Source of the DNA: Thermoplasmatota archaeon | GTDB lineage: Archaea > Thermoplasmatota > Thermoplasmata > UBA10834 | Direction of reading: 5' to 3' | DNA: 47,110 bases | NCBI GenBank assembly: GCA_016930135.1 | Contig: JAFGHM010000001.1 | Span: 1 to 47,110, forward strand | Shown: piece after piece, positions 7,854 through 38,694 of the stretch | How the letters are laid out: each line of letters starts with the position of its first letter | How positions within the stretch are numbered: position 1 is the stretch's first letter | The notes under the pieces: model-generated | What the model saw: only the letters and a program-made list of their open reading frames with translations | Databases searched by the model: none | Told to the model about the DNA's origin: nothing | Program-made: the position numbers and the translations under genes

Positions 7854-10800
7854 TTGGCTGGGAACTATCTAAAGAGCCTCCAGCTAGCAAAGCAGCTGGA
7901 GGAGCGAGCCAAGGAAGCCTCGAAGAACAAGGAGCTTGCCGAGAGGGAGAACGAAGCGCTGGAGCAGTTCCTCAAGGCGTGCTATGAGAACGACGTGGAT
8001 CTCTCAGGCGTCGAAGCGACCAGGAGGGACTTCGAGGCTGCGATGCTGGCGAAGGATTACCAGAGCGCCTTAGCGCATGCCAGGAGGGCTCGGGAAGCAG
8101 CTAACGACGCCTACATAAAGAGGATAGGGGACGTAGCGGACTCCGTAGAGGCGCTTCTGTCTTTGCTGGAGAGCTCAGAGACCGAGCCCAAGGGGGCACA
8201 CGATTACCTCGACAGGAGCAGAGAGCGCGTCGTGGCGGAGGATCTCGAGGGCGCCATGAAATTCGCCAAGAACGCCTACGATGCCGCCGAGAGGCAGCTC
8301 CATGAGTTCCTATCGCAGTTGTTCTCGCAGGCCCAGGAGGTGATGATCCAGGCAAAGGAGATGGGCGAGGACGTGTCCATCTTCGAGGACCAGCTCATGC
8401 GGGCCAAGAACGCCCTTCAGAGCCAGGACTACGAGGCTTGCATGATGCAGGTCAAGGACGTTCTAGAGAGCGCCGGTGAGGAGGTGAAGGCGCAGATAGG
8501 CGGGACGATATCGCGGGTGGAGGAGCTCATCTCGGCAGGAGAGGACCTCAGCGCCGACCTGACCAGGGTAAAGAACCATCTTGAGAAATCCAAAGGCTCC
8601 CTCGGAAGCCTCAAGTTCAAGGAGTCGCTGGCATACGCCAAGAGGGCCGAAAGCGAGGGAGAGAACGCCATCTCAAGCAGATTCCAGGAGATGGCGAGGG
8701 ACGTTAGGGAGAGCATCAAGAAGATGAAGAGTGCCAAAGAGGATGTCACGATCCCCCAGCAGCTTCTTGATCAGGCTCTAGGCGCCCTGAAAGACAAGAG
8801 ATACATCGAGGCTCTCCACGCCCTCAACACCGCCCATGAAAAAGTACACCAGGCAGAGTTCAACTCTGTCCTCGAGGTCATCTCGAAGGCGAGGGACAGA
8901 TTCGTCCTCGCAAAGAAAGTCGAGGTGGACATGACGAAGGCCATCATGCTGCTCAACACTTCGAGGGATCACCTCAAGCTCGGCAAGTTCGAGGAGGCCA
9001 TGCGGTATGCCGAGGAGAGCAGGAAAGAGCTCGACAAATCCCTCGAGACCTTCTACGCGGCCAGGGACCAGCTGGTGGAACTCGCAAAGGCAGTCAAGTT
9101 CGCCTCGGACCTCGGTGCCGACTCCACAGCGAGCAGGAACAGCCTCGCGGAGGCCAGGAAGTTGTTCGAGGCCAAGGAATACGAGGAGACAGTGGAGGGC
9201 GCCGAGCGCGGACTCGCAGAGGTTGCGAAGGTGGTCCGTGAGCGCGCCATGTCCGAGATAGAAGTCGCTGACAAGTCAGTCAAGCTCGGCAAGCAGATAG
9301 GCGCAGATATGACCGAGGCCGAGGGCACCCTTCAGAGGGCGCTGGAGAGCATGGCAAAGGGGGAGATGCTCGAATGTGTCAATCTCTCGAAAGCCTCCCG
9401 AGAAGCCGCCAATGCTGCCATGACGAGAGTGATGAGCGACAAGCTCCAGAGCCTGGACCAGTTCGTGAAGGGATACTCCGGGGACGCGTCAACGGTCACC
9501 GACATTGGCGAGCTGATCACAGAGGCGAGGCAGAACATAGCGTCGTACGACTTCGAGCACGCTCACAATATCCTGAAGGAGGTCACGGAGAAGATAGAAT
9601 CGATAGGCCAAGATGAGTGTCGGAAGGTCATTGGCCTCGCCGTGGAGAGGATTGAGGCCCTCAAATCGATCTCGGGTGATGCTTCCGACCTTGAGATCCT
9701 CCTGACACGTGCCAACGATGCCTTCGAAAGGAGGGTCTACGATGATGCCACAGCCAGGGCAAGGGAGATAATCGATCACGCGGACGAGACGATGGCGAGA
9801 CTCGTAATGACAGAGCTGTCAGCGGTCAAGGACACCCTCGAGGAGGCGCGCACGATAGGCATCAACATCAGGGATGCCATGGAGGCTCTGAGCGAGGCGC
9901 GGACCGTCTCCGAGGCGCAATCGTATCTCGAGGCATTCAGATCGATAAGGCGCACCAAGGAGTCCCTTGAGCAGGACATAGTCAAGTATGACAGCGTCAA
10001 GACGAAACTGACCAGAGCGGAGGAGCTGATTTCCGAGGCCGCCAAGGCAAAGGCAGACGTCTCGCATCTCTCCCGCAAGCTCGAGACGGCAAGGGAACGC
10101 TTCGCTGCATACGACCTGGACCGTGCGGACGAGGCCGTTGAGGACCTCGTCAATGGAGCTGAGAAGAGCCTAGCCATGTACCTAACCGCGAAACTCATAC
10201 TCACATCCAAGGAGAGCATCGAGCTCGCACAGAGCCACGGCATCGACGTCAAGGAGACCGCGGGGAGGCTGGCCGAGGCGAAGGATCTCATGAGACAGAA
10301 GCGATACGAAGACGCTCTCGTGGCCGCGAAGGCCTCTGACCAGGCGGCCAGAAAGACAATAGCCGATTCGATCACGGAGATGATCCGCGACGTCCAGCGG
10401 CTCGTCACAGACGCGAGGAACGTCGGAGTGGACACGGTAGGCCCGGAAAAGCTCCTGACGAAGGCAACCGACCTCGCCAGATCCGCCGATTTCGTGGAAG
10501 CTCTGAGGTGCATATCATCTGCGAGGGAGGACATAAACCATGTCAAGAGCCTGAGCTCTCAGGCGGCCGTCGAGATCCGTGCTGCCAGGAACGGCCTGAA
10601 GGATGCCGAAACCCTCGATATGGACGTCGGGCGCGCGCGGGAACTCCTCGAGCAGGCAATCGAAGCGCTGACGCGGCATCAGTACGCGATAGCCCTCGAG
10701 CTCTCGAGGAAATCCTCAGAAGCGTCATTGGAGGTCTCGCGGTCCAGGATATGGGACATCCTCCAGAAGTTCAAGGAGAGGGTGGACAAGGCCGCGGAGG

Positions 10801-12368
10801 AGGGGGTCCATGTGGGCATGGCCGAGAGGCTCGTCGCCGACGGGCTTCAGGCATTCAAGGATGGCAAGTTCCAGGATTCGCTCAAGCTCGCCATGGCCTG
10901 CGAGGCTGAGATGGACAGGGCGGAGCTGCAGCGGGACATGAGCTCGAGGGCCGTTGAGCTCGCCAAGAAGAAACTGGCGGAGGCCGGAACCGAGGGGATA
11001 GGTAACGAGGAGCTTACGCGCATCGTCGAGCGCGCAGAGGCCCTTCTCAGAGAGGGCAAGTATGTCGAGGCCATGACGACAGCTATCGAGAGCGGAGACG
11101 AGCTCTACTCTGTCAAGGAGAAGCTGGACGGATGCCGCATAGAGCTCAGCACCACCAAGGAACGCATTGACAGGCTGAAGAAGATCAACATCGACACCTC
11201 GGAGTGTGACGAGATATTGGAGATGGCCCAGGAGCTGATGTCCTCCCAGCAGTTCAGTAAAAGTAGTGAGGCGATGACCCGAGCATCGGAGACCGCCGCA
11301 AGGCTCTTCGAGAGCTCCATCAGGGACGTGATGGAGCAGAACAGACAGATCATATCGAAGGCACGCTCGATGGGCATCAACACAAAGCGATGTGAAGACC
11401 TCCTTGAGGTCGCGAACACATCGTTCACCGAGAAGCTCTGGGACTTCGCCTACCAGCAGGCAATGAGTTGCAGGGAGAGCTGCCTTGGCCTTGTTTCGAA
11501 GAAGATATCGAACCTGGTCGCTGAGGTGATGGCCAAGGCGGATGAGTTGAAGCGTCAGGGTGCGGCTACCGGGACCATCGAGGACATGCTCGAGCATGCC
11601 AAGAGGGCTGCTGATAGCGGGGACATAGCAAACGCATTCCAGATACTCATGGATGCCGACAGCAGGTTGGTCGGGCTCGAGGAGTCCCACAAGAAGTACC
11701 TCGACATAATGATTGCTGCCGAGAGCGCCATCGAGAACATCGCGCGCTTCGGCCTTTCGAAGAGAGAGCCGGAGAGGCTCATGGACATGGCCGAGATAGA
11801 GAAGGAGAAGGACTACGACTCCGCGATCGAGCTCGTGGCCGCAGCCCTCGATACGGCCAAGGAGATGCTGGAGACATGCTCCGCGGACCTCAGTGCCAGC
11901 ATAGCCTCCGCGGGCCTTCAGGAGGGCGCGGAGGGAGAGATGACGCTCATAGTCAAGAACACGGGCAAGGCCCTGGCGAAGGACCTGTCCATCGAGGTCG
12001 TGGGCGACTTCGAGACCGGCGACGCAATGAGACTGGCGGCTCTGAAGCCGGGGGCCGAGGTACCGATCAACGTGAAGCTCACGCCCAGGAAGAGCGGCAG
12101 CGTCCCAATCAAGGTGAGGCTCTCGAGCAAGAGGCACTTGGACGGCAAGATTCAGACATTCGAGCTCGACGACTCGGTTAACGTCTTCGCGTCCGGGCCG
12201 CCCTTCAAGATTGGACGGTCTGCCGAAACGACAAGGTGCATATCGTGCCAGGGCAGGATAAAGCCCGGGTTCGACATAGTCACCTGCAGGTGCGGCGGGC
12301 AGCTGCACCTCTCTTGCGCCAAGAGGGCCAGACTCTGCCCGATATGCGGCCAGAAGTATCAGCTCTAG
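7854..12368 (+). CDS. Giant helical-repeat protein with C-terminal beta-sandwich and RING-like zinc finger
   Basis: The 1504-residue protein has no signal peptide or membrane segment and is probably cytosolic. About 1390 residues form roughly 21 tandem units of about 66 residues, each with a Gly-x-Asp turn followed by LLxxAxxAL and a K/D-Y-x-x-A helix (examples: KEDVTIPQQLLDQALGAL, GADMTEAEGTLQRALESM). A CARDB-like beta-sandwich follows near 1340-1450 (EMTLIVKNTGKALAKDLSI). Residues 1462-1498 show C-x2-C-x12-C-x-C-x4-H-x2-C-x6-C-x2-C, the C4HC3 order of RING-CH/PHD-type fingers. The start is TTG with GGAG 11 bases upstream. Its stop overlaps the stop of tldE. I do not recognise a named family; scaffold or protein-quality roles are speculation. 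Confidence 0.85.
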   Translation: MAGNYLKSLQLAKQLEERAKEASKNKELAERENEALEQFLKACYENDVDLSGVEATRRDFEAAMLAKDYQSALAHARRAREAANDAYIKRIGDVADSVEALLSLLESSETEPKGAHDYLDRSRERVVAEDLEGAMKFAKNAYDAAERQLHEFLSQLFSQAQEVMIQAKEMGEDVSIFEDQLMRAKNALQSQDYEACMMQVKDVLESAGEEVKAQIGGTISRVEELISAGEDLSADLTRVKNHLEKSKGSLGSLKFKESLAYAKRAESEGENAISSRFQEMARDVRESIKKMKSAKEDVTIPQQLLDQALGALKDKRYIEALHALNTAHEKVHQAEFNSVLEVISKARDRFVLAKKVEVDMTKAIMLLNTSRDHLKLGKFEEAMRYAEESRKELDKSLETFYAARDQLVELAKAVKFASDLGADSTASRNSLAEARKLFEAKEYEETVEGAERGLAEVAKVVRERAMSEIEVADKSVKLGKQIGADMTEAEGTLQRALESMAKGEMLECVNLSKASREAANAAMTRVMSDKLQSLDQFVKGYSGDASTVTDIGELITEARQNIASYDFEHAHNILKEVTEKIESIGQDECRKVIGLAVERIEALKSISGDASDLEILLTRANDAFERRVYDDATARAREIIDHADETMARLVMTELSAVKDTLEEARTIGINIRDAMEALSEARTVSEAQSYLEAFRSIRRTKESLEQDIVKYDSVKTKLTRAEELISEAAKAKADVSHLSRKLETARERFAAYDLDRADEAVEDLVNGAEKSLAMYLTAKLILTSKESIELAQSHGIDVKETAGRLAEAKDLMRQKRYEDALVAAKASDQAARKTIADSITEMIRDVQRLVTDARNVGVDTVGPEKLLTKATDLARSADFVEALRCISSAREDINHVKSLSSQAAVEIRAARNGLKDAETLDMDVGRARELLEQAIEALTRHQYAIALELSRKSSEASLEVSRSRIWDILQKFKERVDKAAEEGVHVGMAERLVADGLQAFKDGKFQDSLKLAMACEAEMDRAELQRDMSSRAVELAKKKLAEAGTEGIGNEELTRIVERAEALLREGKYVEAMTTAIESGDELYSVKEKLDGCRIELSTTKERIDRLKKINIDTSECDEILEMAQELMSSQQFSKSSEAMTRASETAARLFESSIRDVMEQNRQIISKARSMGINTKRCEDLLEVANTSFTEKLWDFAYQQAMSCRESCLGLVSKKISNLVAEVMAKADELKRQGAATGTIEDMLEHAKRAADSGDIANAFQILMDADSRLVGLEESHKKYLDIMIAAESAIENIARFGLSKREPERLMDMAEIEKEKDYDSAIELVAAALDTAKEMLETCSADLSASIASAGLQEGAEGEMTLIVKNTGKALAKDLSIEVVGDFETGDAMRLAALKPGAEVPINVKLTPRKSGSVPIKVRLSSKRHLDGKIQTFELDDSVNVFASGPPFKIGRSAETTRCISCQGRIKPGFDIVTCRCGGQLHLSCAKRARLCPICGQKYQL

Positions 12369-34236: not shown

Positions 34237-37200
34237 TTGGGCCTTATCGACGCTCTACTCAACAAGGAGAAGAAGCTGCATGAGAGGACCAAGAAGGAGC
34301 TGGCGAAGGTGGATTCTCTCGACAAGGGCGGCAGACCAGCGGAGGCGCTTGCTGAGCTGGAAAAGACCGGCAATCTCCTGAAGGAGAACATGCTCTTCAT
34401 CGGCAAGATGCGGTTCGAGTTCGCCGTCCTGTTCTCGGATCTCGGAGACAAGTACCTCAGGTTTGAGAAGCCCGACAGAGCCGACGACGCCGCCAAGGTG
34501 GCTCTGCAGCTTGATCCCAAGAACGCCAACGCGATGGGAGTGGAAGGCCGGGCCGCCCTCAAGCTGGGCATGAACGACGTGGCCCTGACATCGCTGAATA
34601 ATGCTGTCCAGACGTCTCCTCGCGCTGAGAACCTCTGGGTTGCCCTAGGGGATGTTCAGAGCGCGATAGGCGACGAGGTTGCTGCCGTGGAGAGCTACAG
34701 GCGGGCGCTGGATCTCAACCCGGACGAGATCGCGAACTACGACAGGATACTCCGGCACGACCCCCACGACATGCAGATGATCAAGATGAAGGCCGCAGCT
34801 CTGACGAGGCTGCGGAGATATGAAGAGGCTGTTGCCGTCTACAAAGAAGGGCTGCAGACTGCGCCCAAGGACAAGGACCTGTGGATTGGCATGGCGGCTT
34901 CGCTGGACTTCGCGGGCATGGGCGAGGAGGCCATAACAGCCCTGAACTCAGCGCTCAAGATAGGCCCTAAGGATCCGCAGTGCTTGGAAAGCCTGGGACG
35001 AATACTCCACAAGCTCGGCAGGCAGGAGGAGGCCAGGAAGGCGCTCAGGAAGGCAGTGCAATATGACGAGAAGAACAAAGGCATCTGGAACGAGCTCGGA
35101 GTCGTCGAGCAGGAGCTGGACAGATACGACGACGCCCTCGAGTCTTTCGAGCAGGCCTTGGAGATCGACCCCAAGGACATGACCGTATTGGCGAACAAGA
35201 AGAAGACTCTCGCCCACATGGACAGGCATGAGGAAGTCATTGCGACCTGCGACCTCATCCTCCTGCTGAACCCAGCCGATGCCGAGTGCCTTCTTGACAA
35301 GGCGAAGGCCTTCTTCGCTTTACAGAGGTTCCCAGAGGCGCTGGCGTTCGCGGAATCCTCTCTGCATCTGGTTCCCAAGTCGAGGGATGCCATCAACCTG
35401 AAGAAGGAGTGCTTGATCAAACTCGGTAGACACGCTGATGTCGTCGCTTGGTGCGCCAAGATCATCGAGCTGGATCCTAACGATTACGTCGCCATGCATG
35501 ACAAGGGCGTTGCGCAGATGAAATCCGGGCGGGCCCACGATGCTGTGAAGACCTTCGAGAAGGCCCTGAAGCACGCCCCTGATCCCCTGCCGCTTCTCGT
35601 GAGCCTCAAGGAGGCATACAAGATGCTTCAAAGGGACGACCTTGTCGTTCAGACCTGCGACCGTGTCCTGGAGATCGACCCGAAGAACAAGGGGGCTCAC
35701 CTCGACAAGTCCGTGGCACTCGACAGAGCCGAGAAGTTCGACGAGGCGGTCGCAGCCTATCTAATGGCTCTCAAGAACGACCCTGAGAGTGCGGATCTAT
35801 ACCACAACCTGGCCGCACTTCACCTGCGCGTGGGAAAGGCGAAGGAGGCGCAGGAATACGCAAGGCAGGGGCTCAAGATCGCGCCATCGGATTACGGTCT
35901 CTGGAGACTGCGGGCGGAGGCCAGTTACAAGCTGCAGGAGTTCGATGAAGCCGTCTCGGCCTACACGAAGTCGGTGGAGCTGGTGCCCACCGACAAGGGC
36001 TCCTTCGTGGCCCTCGGGCGGGCGCTGATCGAACTGAAGCGCTTCGAGCAGGCGCTTCTGGCCTTCGACCGGGCGATCAAGCTCGACCCCTCCGACGCCA
36101 ACACATGGTTCCAGCAGGCCCTGGCACTCGAATGGCTCGAGCGATTCGAAGACGCCCTCTCGTCCGTGAGGGAGGCAGTCAGATCTAGCCCGGCAGTGCC
36201 GGAGTACAGGATCAAGGAAGGGGTGATGCTCGCTCGCATGAACAAGCCAGATGAGGCCCTTCTTGCCTACGACGAAGCCCTGAGGCTGGTTCCGAAGAAC
36301 CTGCCGGTCATGATCGCCAAGAGAGAACTCCTGAAGAGCCTGAAGAGGTACGAAGAGGTGATCGCGATATGCAACGAGATACTCGCCGCGAACCCCAGAG
36401 ACAGGGACACACTCACGGATAGGGGAAGTGCCTCGCTGTTCCTGAAGAGACCGAATGATGCTCTCGTGTCCTTCAACAAGGCCCTCGAGCACAACAAGGA
36501 CGATCTCGACCTCCTGGAGCTCAAAAAGATGGCGCTGATTGCCATGGATGACGCTGAGAGTGTGGTCCATGTCGCCGACCATATACTCAGACTCAGCCCG
36601 GAGAACAAGAGCGCATTCGCGGACAGGGGCAATGCCCTCGACAAGCTCGGAAGGAGCGACGAGGCGCTCAAGAGCTATGAGGAGGCGCTAGCGCTCGACC
36701 CTAAGGACGTCTACCTTCTCAACAGGAAAGGGATGCTGCTCCTGGCCGACGGCAACCCCGCCCAGGCTGCGGAGACCTTCGAGTTTGCAATCAAGCTCGA
36801 CTCCAATCAGCCTTTCGTGTTGAACAACAGGGGGAAGGCGTATCTCGAGCTGCGGAGGTTCGACGAGGCGCTCGCGGACTTCAGAAAGGCAATCACAATC
36901 CTTCCGAACGTGGCCGAGTTCCACATGAACGAGGGACGGACGCTCGCCAGCGTGGGAAAGTTCGACGAGGGTATCGGTTCCTTCAACGAGGCCAGGAGGT
37001 TGGCGCCCCAGGATGTCGGCGTGCTGAAGTACATGGGCATGGCCCTCCTGAAGCTGAACAGGGTTTCCGAGGCTCTCGGGATTTTCGACGAGGCGATCAG
37101 GCTCGGCTCCAACGACAAGGACATGTGGAAGAGCCGCGCGAAGGCGTTCGAGGCCACCGGTGACAAGGAGGAGGCCATCAAGTCATACATGCGCGCGCTC

Positions 37201-38694
37201 GATGTCGACCCTCAGGACCAGGCGGCCTGGTATCGTCTCGGGCTGCTCCACACGGAGGTCGGGAGGAACATAGATGCGAACGCATGCTTCGACAGGGCCT
37301 TGGACATCGATAGCTCCAACGCCAAGATATGGATGAGCAAGGGTTTCGCCATGGAGAAGCAAGGCCTGCTGGAGGAGGCCGTGAGCTCGTACGACCGAGC
37401 CATAGGCCTCGACTCGAATGACAAGGAGGCCTGGAATAGCAAGGCGCAGGTGCTCATGGGGCTCGGCAGGGCGGAGCAGGCCCTGAGGTGCTTCGAGCAC
37501 GCGCTCAGCATCGACCCGTACTTCGAGGCCGCGGCAGAAGGCAGGAAGCAGGCGGAGGAGGACATACGCAGGAACAAGATAGAGGACTACTCACGGGCCG
37601 TGCTAGACTTCGAATACACTCACGGCAGGCCCGTCTCCAAGGAGGAGGCGTTCAGGGTGTGCGGCATCCCCTACGCTTTCCTAGGCGACGTGATGGAGTT
37701 CCTGAGTGGCAAGGTGGAGTTCAGCCTCTCCGGGATGAGCAGAGAGGATTTCGAGAGGTACGAGAAGATGGCGAGGGAGGTCCTCGTCAACGCAATGGAG
37801 AAGCGGGACCTCGCCGCCCACGGGCTGAGGTTCTGCGACATCACAGTCAACTTCCCCGAGCTGAAGATCTCCAGCGCGAAGAAGATCCTGAGCTACATAC
37901 AAGCTGTCGAGGAGCACGAGTTCTCGACGAAGGTGACGGACCCGCAGACCGAGACCCTCCTCAGGCAGGCCCTTGAACTCCCGAACGACCAGAAGAACGT
38001 CCTCGGGCTGATCAGGAACCTGGGAGTAGGCCCCTACTGGGCCCGTCAGCTCACGACCATCCTGCACACGTTCCATGAAGCCGGCGTATCGACTCAGACG
38101 GTCGCACTGAGGTCCATAGTCAGCGAAGGGTACGGTCGGTATGTGCCCTATGATGAGCGGGAGGTCAGACGAGCGACCCCGGAGATGCTCGAGGAATACG
38201 AGGGCAGGCGACCGAGACAGAGGCCTCCGCCCCAACGGGGGCGGAGGGAATACGAAGCCCCTGAGGAGGAGGAGCCCGGCCCGCGGAGGCGGTACAGCAA
38301 GGAGGTCGAGGCGGTCAGGCAGAGAATCTACGAGGAGACCCCGAGCGCTAGGCCTAAGAAGGAGACTCAGAAGCAGGAGGAGGAAGTGCCCTCGGATCTC
38401 GTGGGCAGAAGGTGTCTCTTCCACGGGGGCGTGGCTGTTGCCAGGTGCAGGAAGTGCAAGGCGGTTCTCTGCAGGGAGTGTGTCAGAGGGTCCGACCGTT
38501 GCCCGAGGTGCAACACGCCTCTCAGGGAAGTGACGGAGGGGAGGCCCGAGAGGCGAAGGGCTGAGGAGCCGGAAGAGGAGGAGGCCGAAGGAGAGGCCGA
38601 GGAGGAGCCGGAAGAGGAGAGGCCGAAGAAGAGGGCCAGGGAGCAGAGGCGGGATAAGAAGAAGCCTTCAGAGGACGACCTCAGCAGGCTCTGA
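34237..38694 (+). CDS. Giant TPR protein with C-terminal B-box-like zinc finger
   Basis: The 1485-residue protein is without signal peptide or membrane segment. About 30 tetratricopeptide repeats of 34 residues span roughly 35-1110 (examples YDDALESFEQALEIDPKD and AWYRLGLLHTEVGRNIDANA), forming a long superhelix for protein binding. A region of about 230 residues with HTH-like and helical segments follows (GRPVSKEEAFRVCGIPYAFL). An Arg/Pro/Glu-rich linker leads to a zinc finger at 1393-1425: C-x2-H-x7-C-x2-C-x4-C-x2-C-x6-C-x2-C, of B-box type. The last 60 residues are highly charged (EEPEEEEAEGEAEEEPEEER). The start is TTG with AGGTGA upstream. Role unknown; a scaffold is likely. Confidence 0.88.
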   Translation: MGLIDALLNKEKKLHERTKKELAKVDSLDKGGRPAEALAELEKTGNLLKENMLFIGKMRFEFAVLFSDLGDKYLRFEKPDRADDAAKVALQLDPKNANAMGVEGRAALKLGMNDVALTSLNNAVQTSPRAENLWVALGDVQSAIGDEVAAVESYRRALDLNPDEIANYDRILRHDPHDMQMIKMKAAALTRLRRYEEAVAVYKEGLQTAPKDKDLWIGMAASLDFAGMGEEAITALNSALKIGPKDPQCLESLGRILHKLGRQEEARKALRKAVQYDEKNKGIWNELGVVEQELDRYDDALESFEQALEIDPKDMTVLANKKKTLAHMDRHEEVIATCDLILLLNPADAECLLDKAKAFFALQRFPEALAFAESSLHLVPKSRDAINLKKECLIKLGRHADVVAWCAKIIELDPNDYVAMHDKGVAQMKSGRAHDAVKTFEKALKHAPDPLPLLVSLKEAYKMLQRDDLVVQTCDRVLEIDPKNKGAHLDKSVALDRAEKFDEAVAAYLMALKNDPESADLYHNLAALHLRVGKAKEAQEYARQGLKIAPSDYGLWRLRAEASYKLQEFDEAVSAYTKSVELVPTDKGSFVALGRALIELKRFEQALLAFDRAIKLDPSDANTWFQQALALEWLERFEDALSSVREAVRSSPAVPEYRIKEGVMLARMNKPDEALLAYDEALRLVPKNLPVMIAKRELLKSLKRYEEVIAICNEILAANPRDRDTLTDRGSASLFLKRPNDALVSFNKALEHNKDDLDLLELKKMALIAMDDAESVVHVADHILRLSPENKSAFADRGNALDKLGRSDEALKSYEEALALDPKDVYLLNRKGMLLLADGNPAQAAETFEFAIKLDSNQPFVLNNRGKAYLELRRFDEALADFRKAITILPNVAEFHMNEGRTLASVGKFDEGIGSFNEARRLAPQDVGVLKYMGMALLKLNRVSEALGIFDEAIRLGSNDKDMWKSRAKAFEATGDKEEAIKSYMRALDVDPQDQAAWYRLGLLHTEVGRNIDANACFDRALDIDSSNAKIWMSKGFAMEKQGLLEEAVSSYDRAIGLDSNDKEAWNSKAQVLMGLGRAEQALRCFEHALSIDPYFEAAAEGRKQAEEDIRRNKIEDYSRAVLDFEYTHGRPVSKEEAFRVCGIPYAFLGDVMEFLSGKVEFSLSGMSREDFERYEKMAREVLVNAMEKRDLAAHGLRFCDITVNFPELKISSAKKILSYIQAVEEHEFSTKVTDPQTETLLRQALELPNDQKNVLGLIRNLGVGPYWARQLTTILHTFHEAGVSTQTVALRSIVSEGYGRYVPYDEREVRRATPEMLEEYEGRRPRQRPPPQRGRREYEAPEEEEPGPRRRYSKEVEAVRQRIYEETPSARPKKETQKQEEEVPSDLVGRRCLFHGGVAVARCRKCKAVLCRECVRGSDRCPRCNTPLREVTEGRPERRRAEEPEEEEAEGEAEEEPEEERPKKRAREQRRDKKKPSEDDLSRL

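Follow-up and report, generated by a model that had tools for sequence, protein, structure and literature searches.

An archaeal cascade of E1, E2 and RING protein works in vitro, and in the RING protein srfp of Caldiarchaeum the residues W58 and R69 have been reported to be important (PMC5654768). Precursor trimming by a JAMM-type enzyme also has a precedent in Caldiarchaeum (PMC6043591), and prokaryotic RING domains have the C4HC3 order according to a review (PMC11354881). The RING protein encoded in the known archaeal ubiquitin operons is small, whereas in some Thermoplasmatota a giant repeat protein is encoded in the operon. The giant described here is encoded in a window of 47,110 nucleotides (the whole stretch of DNA that was analysed), which makes up the entire contig C41 of a 1.83-Mb genome bin.

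Architecture of the giant repeat protein

The coordinates, frame and length of the giant open reading frame had been given correctly in an earlier sequence-only reading of the window (Table 1). The gene is flanked upstream by Hel308, Cgi121 and parts of formiminotransferase-cyclodeaminase, and downstream by TldD/PmbA and HutH. In addition to the helical repeats and the C-terminal finger already noticed in that reading, the protein possesses a conserved N-terminal helix and a CARDB domain located between the array and the finger. Pfam matches to PET, IL2 and Telomere_reg-2 were judged to be chance matches to helices.

Table 1. Coordinates of the giant, its parts, a second giant of the window and the cassette of the same genome
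Feature	Sequence	Coordinates	Strand	Description
Giant repeat protein	window	7854-12368	+	1504 aa, TTG start, frame open over 1504 codons
Conserved N-terminal helix	window	7854-7994	+	residues 1-47; YLKxxQLxKQLEEKAKEA; before the array; conserved columns; AlphaFold helix 5-45
21 tandem repeat units	window	7995-11876	+	residues 48-1341; 62-63 residues each; repeat statistics and AlphaFold
Starts of repeat units (residues)	giant	48, 113, 171, 234, 296, 358, 421, 483, 548, 609, 669, 734, 796, 858, 923, 984, 1053, 1113, 1174, 1236; partial 1317		unit profile
Ig-like CARDB beta sandwich	window	11889-12218	+	residues 1346-1455; PF07705, predicted strands, Foldseek
C4HC3 zinc finger, Prok-RING_1 type	window	12237-12347	+	residues 1462-1498; profile and ligand spacing
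Second giant	window	34237-38694	+	1485 aa; about 20 TPR copies, TPR_1 E 6e-126
ThiF/E1	L111 (own genome, contig C75)	3625-4467
Ubl	L111	4468-4716		83 codons, ends PDPEGG-stop
E2	L111	4725-5246		HPNI...GGYVC with catalytic Cys; PF00179 54.8 bits vs 27
JAMM protease	L111	5230-5889		carries HSHPGHTCFLSRTD

Self-alignment, run as a BLOSUM autocorrelation of residues 1-1330 of the single sequence, peaked at a distance of 62 residues (z 10.5) and again, less strongly, at 124 and 126, compared to a largest z of about 4.2 in 300 shuffles; when a profile of 33 orthologs was used, z at 62 rose to 19.7. The tandem repeat seen in the sequence-only reading is real, but its period of 66 residues has to be corrected to 62, with a unit spacing of 62-63. 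The number of about 21 copies was borne out by a family unit profile, which detected 20 copies with E-values of at most 1e-6 and one further, partial copy (E 4e-4); the consensus of the unit is GADVSEAEELLEKAKEALKEGDYEEALELAKEAKEEAEKALEEKVSDLISSAEELIE.

Structures of residues 1-603 and 918-1504 were predicted by AlphaFold2 from alignments of 53 and 54 rows, with a mean pLDDT of 86.6 and 87.6, respectively. In the models, helices of 15 residues strictly alternate with helices of 36-41 residues (about 40), and within each unit the two are joined by a turn of 3 residues. Sixteen short helices were directly modelled (residues 51-545 and 926-1304) and five more can be placed between these in the 62-residue register, for a total of 21 units with a mean spacing of 62.6 residues. 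As the pTM is only 0.43 and 0.48, the overall rod shape in the models is unreliable. The predicted helix pattern suggests a geometry resembling a shortened spectrin rod.

Following the array, the giant contains a CARDB domain, for which profile and fold agree. In the Pfam scan, residues 1348-1423 matched PF07705 at 23.0 bits against a cut-off of 22.7, and the model of the C-terminus has an Ig-like beta sandwich at residues 1346-1455, which Foldseek matched to the CARDB domain of Pyrococcus PF1109 (3idu/2kl6).

The finger has the pattern C-x2-C-x12-C-x-C-x4-H-x2-C-x6-C-x2-C, with the ligands C1462, C1465, C1478, C1480, H1485, C1488, C1495 and C1498. All eight are invariant in 19 aligned ortholog fingers. 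Of 76 distinct fingers, 60 have identical spacing and 16 vary only at C2-C3 or C3-C4. This agrees with the C4HC3 order read from the sequence alone, but the assignment to RING-CH or PHD fingers was too specific. RING-CH fingers have the spacing C4-x7-H and C6-x(11-25)-C7, and PHD fingers C6-x(12+)-C7. In all 76 fingers four residues separate C4 from H and six separate C6 from C7; thus RING-CH identity fails on spacing despite the fitting ligand order, and PHD identity fails on the six-residue C6-C7 loop.

The finger instead groups with Prok-RING_1 (PF14446): alone it scored 29.5 bits against a cut-off of 29.1 (the full protein scored 21.7, under the cut-off), and 13 of 22 orthologs matched at E <= 1e-3. 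Against the PDB, the finger profile reached E about 1e-3 with the fingers of RING E3 proteins such as Arkadia and RNF165. The sequence-only reading had named a simple zinc ribbon as the alternative; AlphaFold2 predicted two strands followed by a helix, which is compatible with a treble clef. RING fingers contact E2 through the residue at C1+2; it is Ile, Leu or Val in 54 of the 76 fingers, and Ser in the giant of the window. A Trp in the C6-C7 loop was found in none of the 76, and a linchpin Arg or Lys at C8+1 in only two.

Moreover, the finger is a mobile module of the phylum, which is also joined to zinc ribbons, Kelch and Ig domains, DUF835 or large Ig/PKD proteins (L051, L053, L054, L056 and L183 6974-9886). 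The second giant of the window also has a C-terminal Cys-rich finger, CLFHGGVAVARCRKCKAVLCRECVRGSDRCPRC, with a charged tail after it.

The giant family and the ubiquitin-like cassette

The giant family spans the phylum Thermoplasmatota, as revealed by the profile search for the repeat in other archaea that the sequence-only reading had proposed. Orthologs were found in 53 of 60 relatives, most of them about 1440-1520 aa long. In a sample of 300 genomes of the class, 223 had matches to the C-terminal model, many of the weak ones being finger-only or partial. Named records of the family come from Thermoplasmata, including Methanomassiliicoccales and SG8-5. Outside the class, repeat proteins reach about 3,200 aa with the finger (G303 and G314) and 2,780 aa (G330), and a contig of G336 (C92; L189 and L190) has one open frame of 7,295 codons, very large for an archaeal open reading frame, with many copies of the 62-residue repeat.

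Variants of this architecture were also observed. The finger was lost in families f8, f10, f20, f30 and f32, which kept the repeats and CARDB, and paralogs of about 2,000-2,400 aa in three genomes (G113 contig C63, G186 contig C25 and G162 contig C1) match the repeats and CARDB, not the finger. In G011 (L014 / L059), a single in-frame TGA splits an otherwise intact ortholog. In G322, a finger open reading frame in another frame (L193 2847-3428) overlaps the 3' end of the giant, whose finger may be split off or frameshifted.

As had been proposed from the sequence, we searched the genome for ubiquitin-like and E2-like genes, which revealed a full E1-Ubl-E2-JAMM cassette (Table 1). Besides the own genome, 29 of 40 relatives gave a hit to E2 (PF00179) over its cut-off, compared to none of 14 control genomes. 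Pfam gave no match for the Ubl, which was identified by its GG end, its position in the cassette and its conservation there. Judged from these sequence features, the own genome has the complete archaeal ubiquitin-like conjugation gene set (Ubl-GG, E1, E2 with Cys, and JAMM). The cassette was found repeatedly across the phylum. No earlier report of it in Thermoplasmatota was found in the literature searched, mostly open-access papers, which also gave nothing specific on the 62-residue repeat or on CARDB with RING in archaea.

In several families, though not in the own genome, a finger protein is encoded within the Ubl operon. In f37 (two genomes; L183+L184 and L185+L186), the order on a single strand is E1, giant, Ubl, E2, JAMM, the giant being about 3,150-3,200 aa long with a C-terminal finger. 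Its Ubl ends in GGG or GGA, one residue past GG, as would be expected if JAMM trims the precursor. In f54 (two genomes; L187 and L188), the giant is followed by E2 and JAMM, each open reading frame starting directly after the preceding stop. In f51 (L214), a 425-aa finger protein precedes E1, Ubl, E2 and JAMM. In addition, E1 precedes the giant in f52 (L193). Five loci of f7 have an E2-like gene next to the giant and divergent from it; the product of this E2-like gene has an N-terminal extension resembling Ubl and no Cys at the catalytic position, which is Lys in L034 (6288-7004) and His with an adjacent Cys in L033 (5411-6094). These proteins may be inactive E2 variants.

With the cassette in the own genome and relatives of the giant encoded in the same operon elsewhere, the best single explanation is that the giant is a RING-type, E3-like scaffold for a ubiquitin-like tagging pathway of the phylum, a reading that we favour tentatively. 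The Prok-RING_1 score of the finger, its profile matches to RING E3 fingers and the archaeal cascade known to work in vitro speak for it as well. The finger would dock the E2~Ubl thioester, and the repeat rod would bind substrates or a cellular structure along its length. The E1-charged E2 would then place Ubl on the rod-bound targets, and the JAMM protease would trim the Ubl precursor and remove the tag. In lineages without E2, rod and finger might persist as a scaffold. Extended to the whole phylum, this becomes a Ubl pathway whose E3 is a giant scaffold with a length between 1,500 and about 3,200 residues. The finger at its tip would recruit E2~Ubl, and the solenoid of unnamed 62-residue repeats would present the substrates, which in some lineages might be the SMC machinery; this extended form is plausible, if rather uncertain.

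A finger that served purely as an E3 module should disappear together with E2. Among the families of the class, 11 have both, 10 have the finger without E2, four have E2 without the finger and one has neither, with no positive association (Fisher p 0.36); families were assigned by hand from listed matches, excluding the mixed or unclear f21, f29 and f33. The absence of E2 was confirmed with a lineage-specific E2 profile, including in genomes 98-99% complete. The ten families with finger and without E2 thus imply that the finger works there without an E2 of the PF00179 type, and co-occurrence of the two (p 0.36) failed as proof of E3 function.

Further observations weigh against the E3-like scaffold. 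The giant of the own family is unlinked to the cassette; its finger lacks two standard E3 residues, the C6-C7 Trp and the linchpin Arg/Lys; the same finger occurs in unrelated proteins (Kelch, DUF835 and zinc ribbon); Ser occupies its C1+2 position; the E2-like proteins of f7 have no Cys at the catalytic position; and in six families the giant lies in an smc-scpA-scpB operon instead. The role in ubiquitin transfer proposed from the sequence alone therefore stands in part: the cassette of the own genome and the finger-bearing giant in the operon of two other families speak for it, whereas half of the finger-bearing families in the class are without any E2.

Possible alternative roles of the giant

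Alternatively, the giant might be a cytoplasmic structural rod or general docking scaffold that belongs to no fixed pathway and has lineage-dependent neighbours, its finger being a docking or structural zinc module without ligase function. Length and architecture are indeed kept while the neighbours vary (Hel308/Cgi121/FTCD, smc-scpAB, E2 and FKBP/RFC), and such a role also accords with the finger losses in families that retain repeats and CARDB and with the missing E3 contact residues. However, the eight ligands and their spacing are nearly fixed, and the recurrence of finger proteins within Ubl operons of several families would be left unexplained by a neutral scaffold. We consider a rod without ligase function somewhat unlikely.

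Given the six families with smc-scpA-scpB, the main rival to the E3-like reading is that the giant assists the archaeal SMC-kleisin (condensin-like) machine as an accessory scaffold, whose rod would contact SMC or ScpA like the eukaryotic HAWKs, with Ig domain and finger docking partners. Nse1 of SMC5/6 carries a RING-like finger. Gene neighbourhoods were clustered with non-overlapping open reading frames, and smc, scpA and scpB were identified by Pfam. In f15, f19, f21, f23, f24 and f27, smc, scpA, scpB and the giant follow one another on a single strand, the last two open reading frames being about 20-150 bp apart, and in genus g24 of f10 the giant is convergent with and adjoins scpB. At L091 2742-12470 and similar loci of the six families, hutH is convergent downstream of this single-strand set. 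In the tree, the SMC-linked giants form one well-supported clade in addition to the separate f10 case. In six pairs of archaeal ScpA and ScpB that have been tested, the two proteins did not bind each other (PMC7055376), which raises the question of what else assists archaeal SMC and counts for an SMC role; the giant beside smc-scpA-scpB in another branch is thus a candidate for the missing partner of archaeal SMC complexes.

Nevertheless, the smc linkage is essentially confined to one clade and may reflect a single ancestral arrangement. The adjacency of hutH was not taken to indicate a functional link and served instead to control for inherited gene order: this unrelated catabolic gene is an equally conserved, convergent neighbour (10 families), so inherited gene order suffices to explain the smc linkage. 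Moreover, the giant and scpB are far apart in complete genomes of relatives as well as in the own family (in the own genome they lie on different contigs), and a full-length giant is missing from f18 and f6, both of which have scpB. An SMC-linked scaffold is somewhat unlikely as well.

It is highly improbable that the giant is an ordinary TPR or spectrin-type repeat protein, since its unit length of 62-63 residues (vs 34 or about 106), its long second helix of about 40 residues and the lack of Pfam and PDB fold matches outweigh the TPR-like spacing A-x2-A-L-x4-Y-x2-A-x3-A-x2-A in the first half of each unit, the single ortholog of 22 that reached TPR_2 in Pfam and the weak profile matches of the repeat to consensus TPR in the PDB. 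In the giant, neither TPR nor spectrin was matched in Pfam even at E 1, and a Foldseek search of the N-terminal repeat model against the PDB gave no fold match at E <= 0.001. Comparison of the unit with a TPR profile, a small one built from 12 units of the neighbouring TPR giant, aligned only 17 columns at 44% probability. As the sequence-only reading had supposed in finding no named repeat for the pattern, the 62-residue repeat is new to the libraries searched.

Altogether, the analysis yields a defined, testable gene set (E1, Ubl, E2, JAMM and giant) in addition to a new helical repeat. If the E3-like scaffold is the true reading, prokaryotes far from the Asgard archaea built large E3-like platforms, long held to be a eukaryotic elaboration.

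Comparison with known systems

The helical hairpin of the giant shares the Ala/Tyr spacing of TPR helices A and B, but has a period of 62-63 residues and helices of 15 and about 40 residues, the second being continuous, compared to a period of 34 with two helices of similar length in TPR. Like spectrin repeats, the giant is predicted to have long continuous helices that bridge neighbouring units in a rod; however, each unit has 62-63 residues instead of about 106 in three helices, and there is no sequence or fold match between them. The HAWK and KITE subunits of SMC complexes resemble the giant in that it is encoded beside smc-scpA-scpB in six families, a likeness of gene neighbourhood, and they have no sequence relation to it.

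The finger resembles Prok-RING_1 in its eight ligands and C4HC3 order and, taken alone, passes the curated cut-off of that family, but in the giant it is fused to CARDB and to about 1,300 residues of helical repeats. Compared to srfp, it has C4HC3 instead of C3H2C3 ligands and is without the Trp and linchpin that matter there. Similar to the ubiquitin operon of Caldiarchaeum subterraneum and Asgard archaea (Ub, E1, E2, srfp and Rpn11; PMC5654768, PMC6043591), the cassette brings together a GG-ended Ubl, an E1-like, an E2-like and a JAMM protein, and some Thermoplasmatota families likewise have a RING-like protein in the operon. Despite this shared gene content, the small RING protein of those operons has its counterpart in Thermoplasmatota in a repeat giant of 1,500-3,200 residues.
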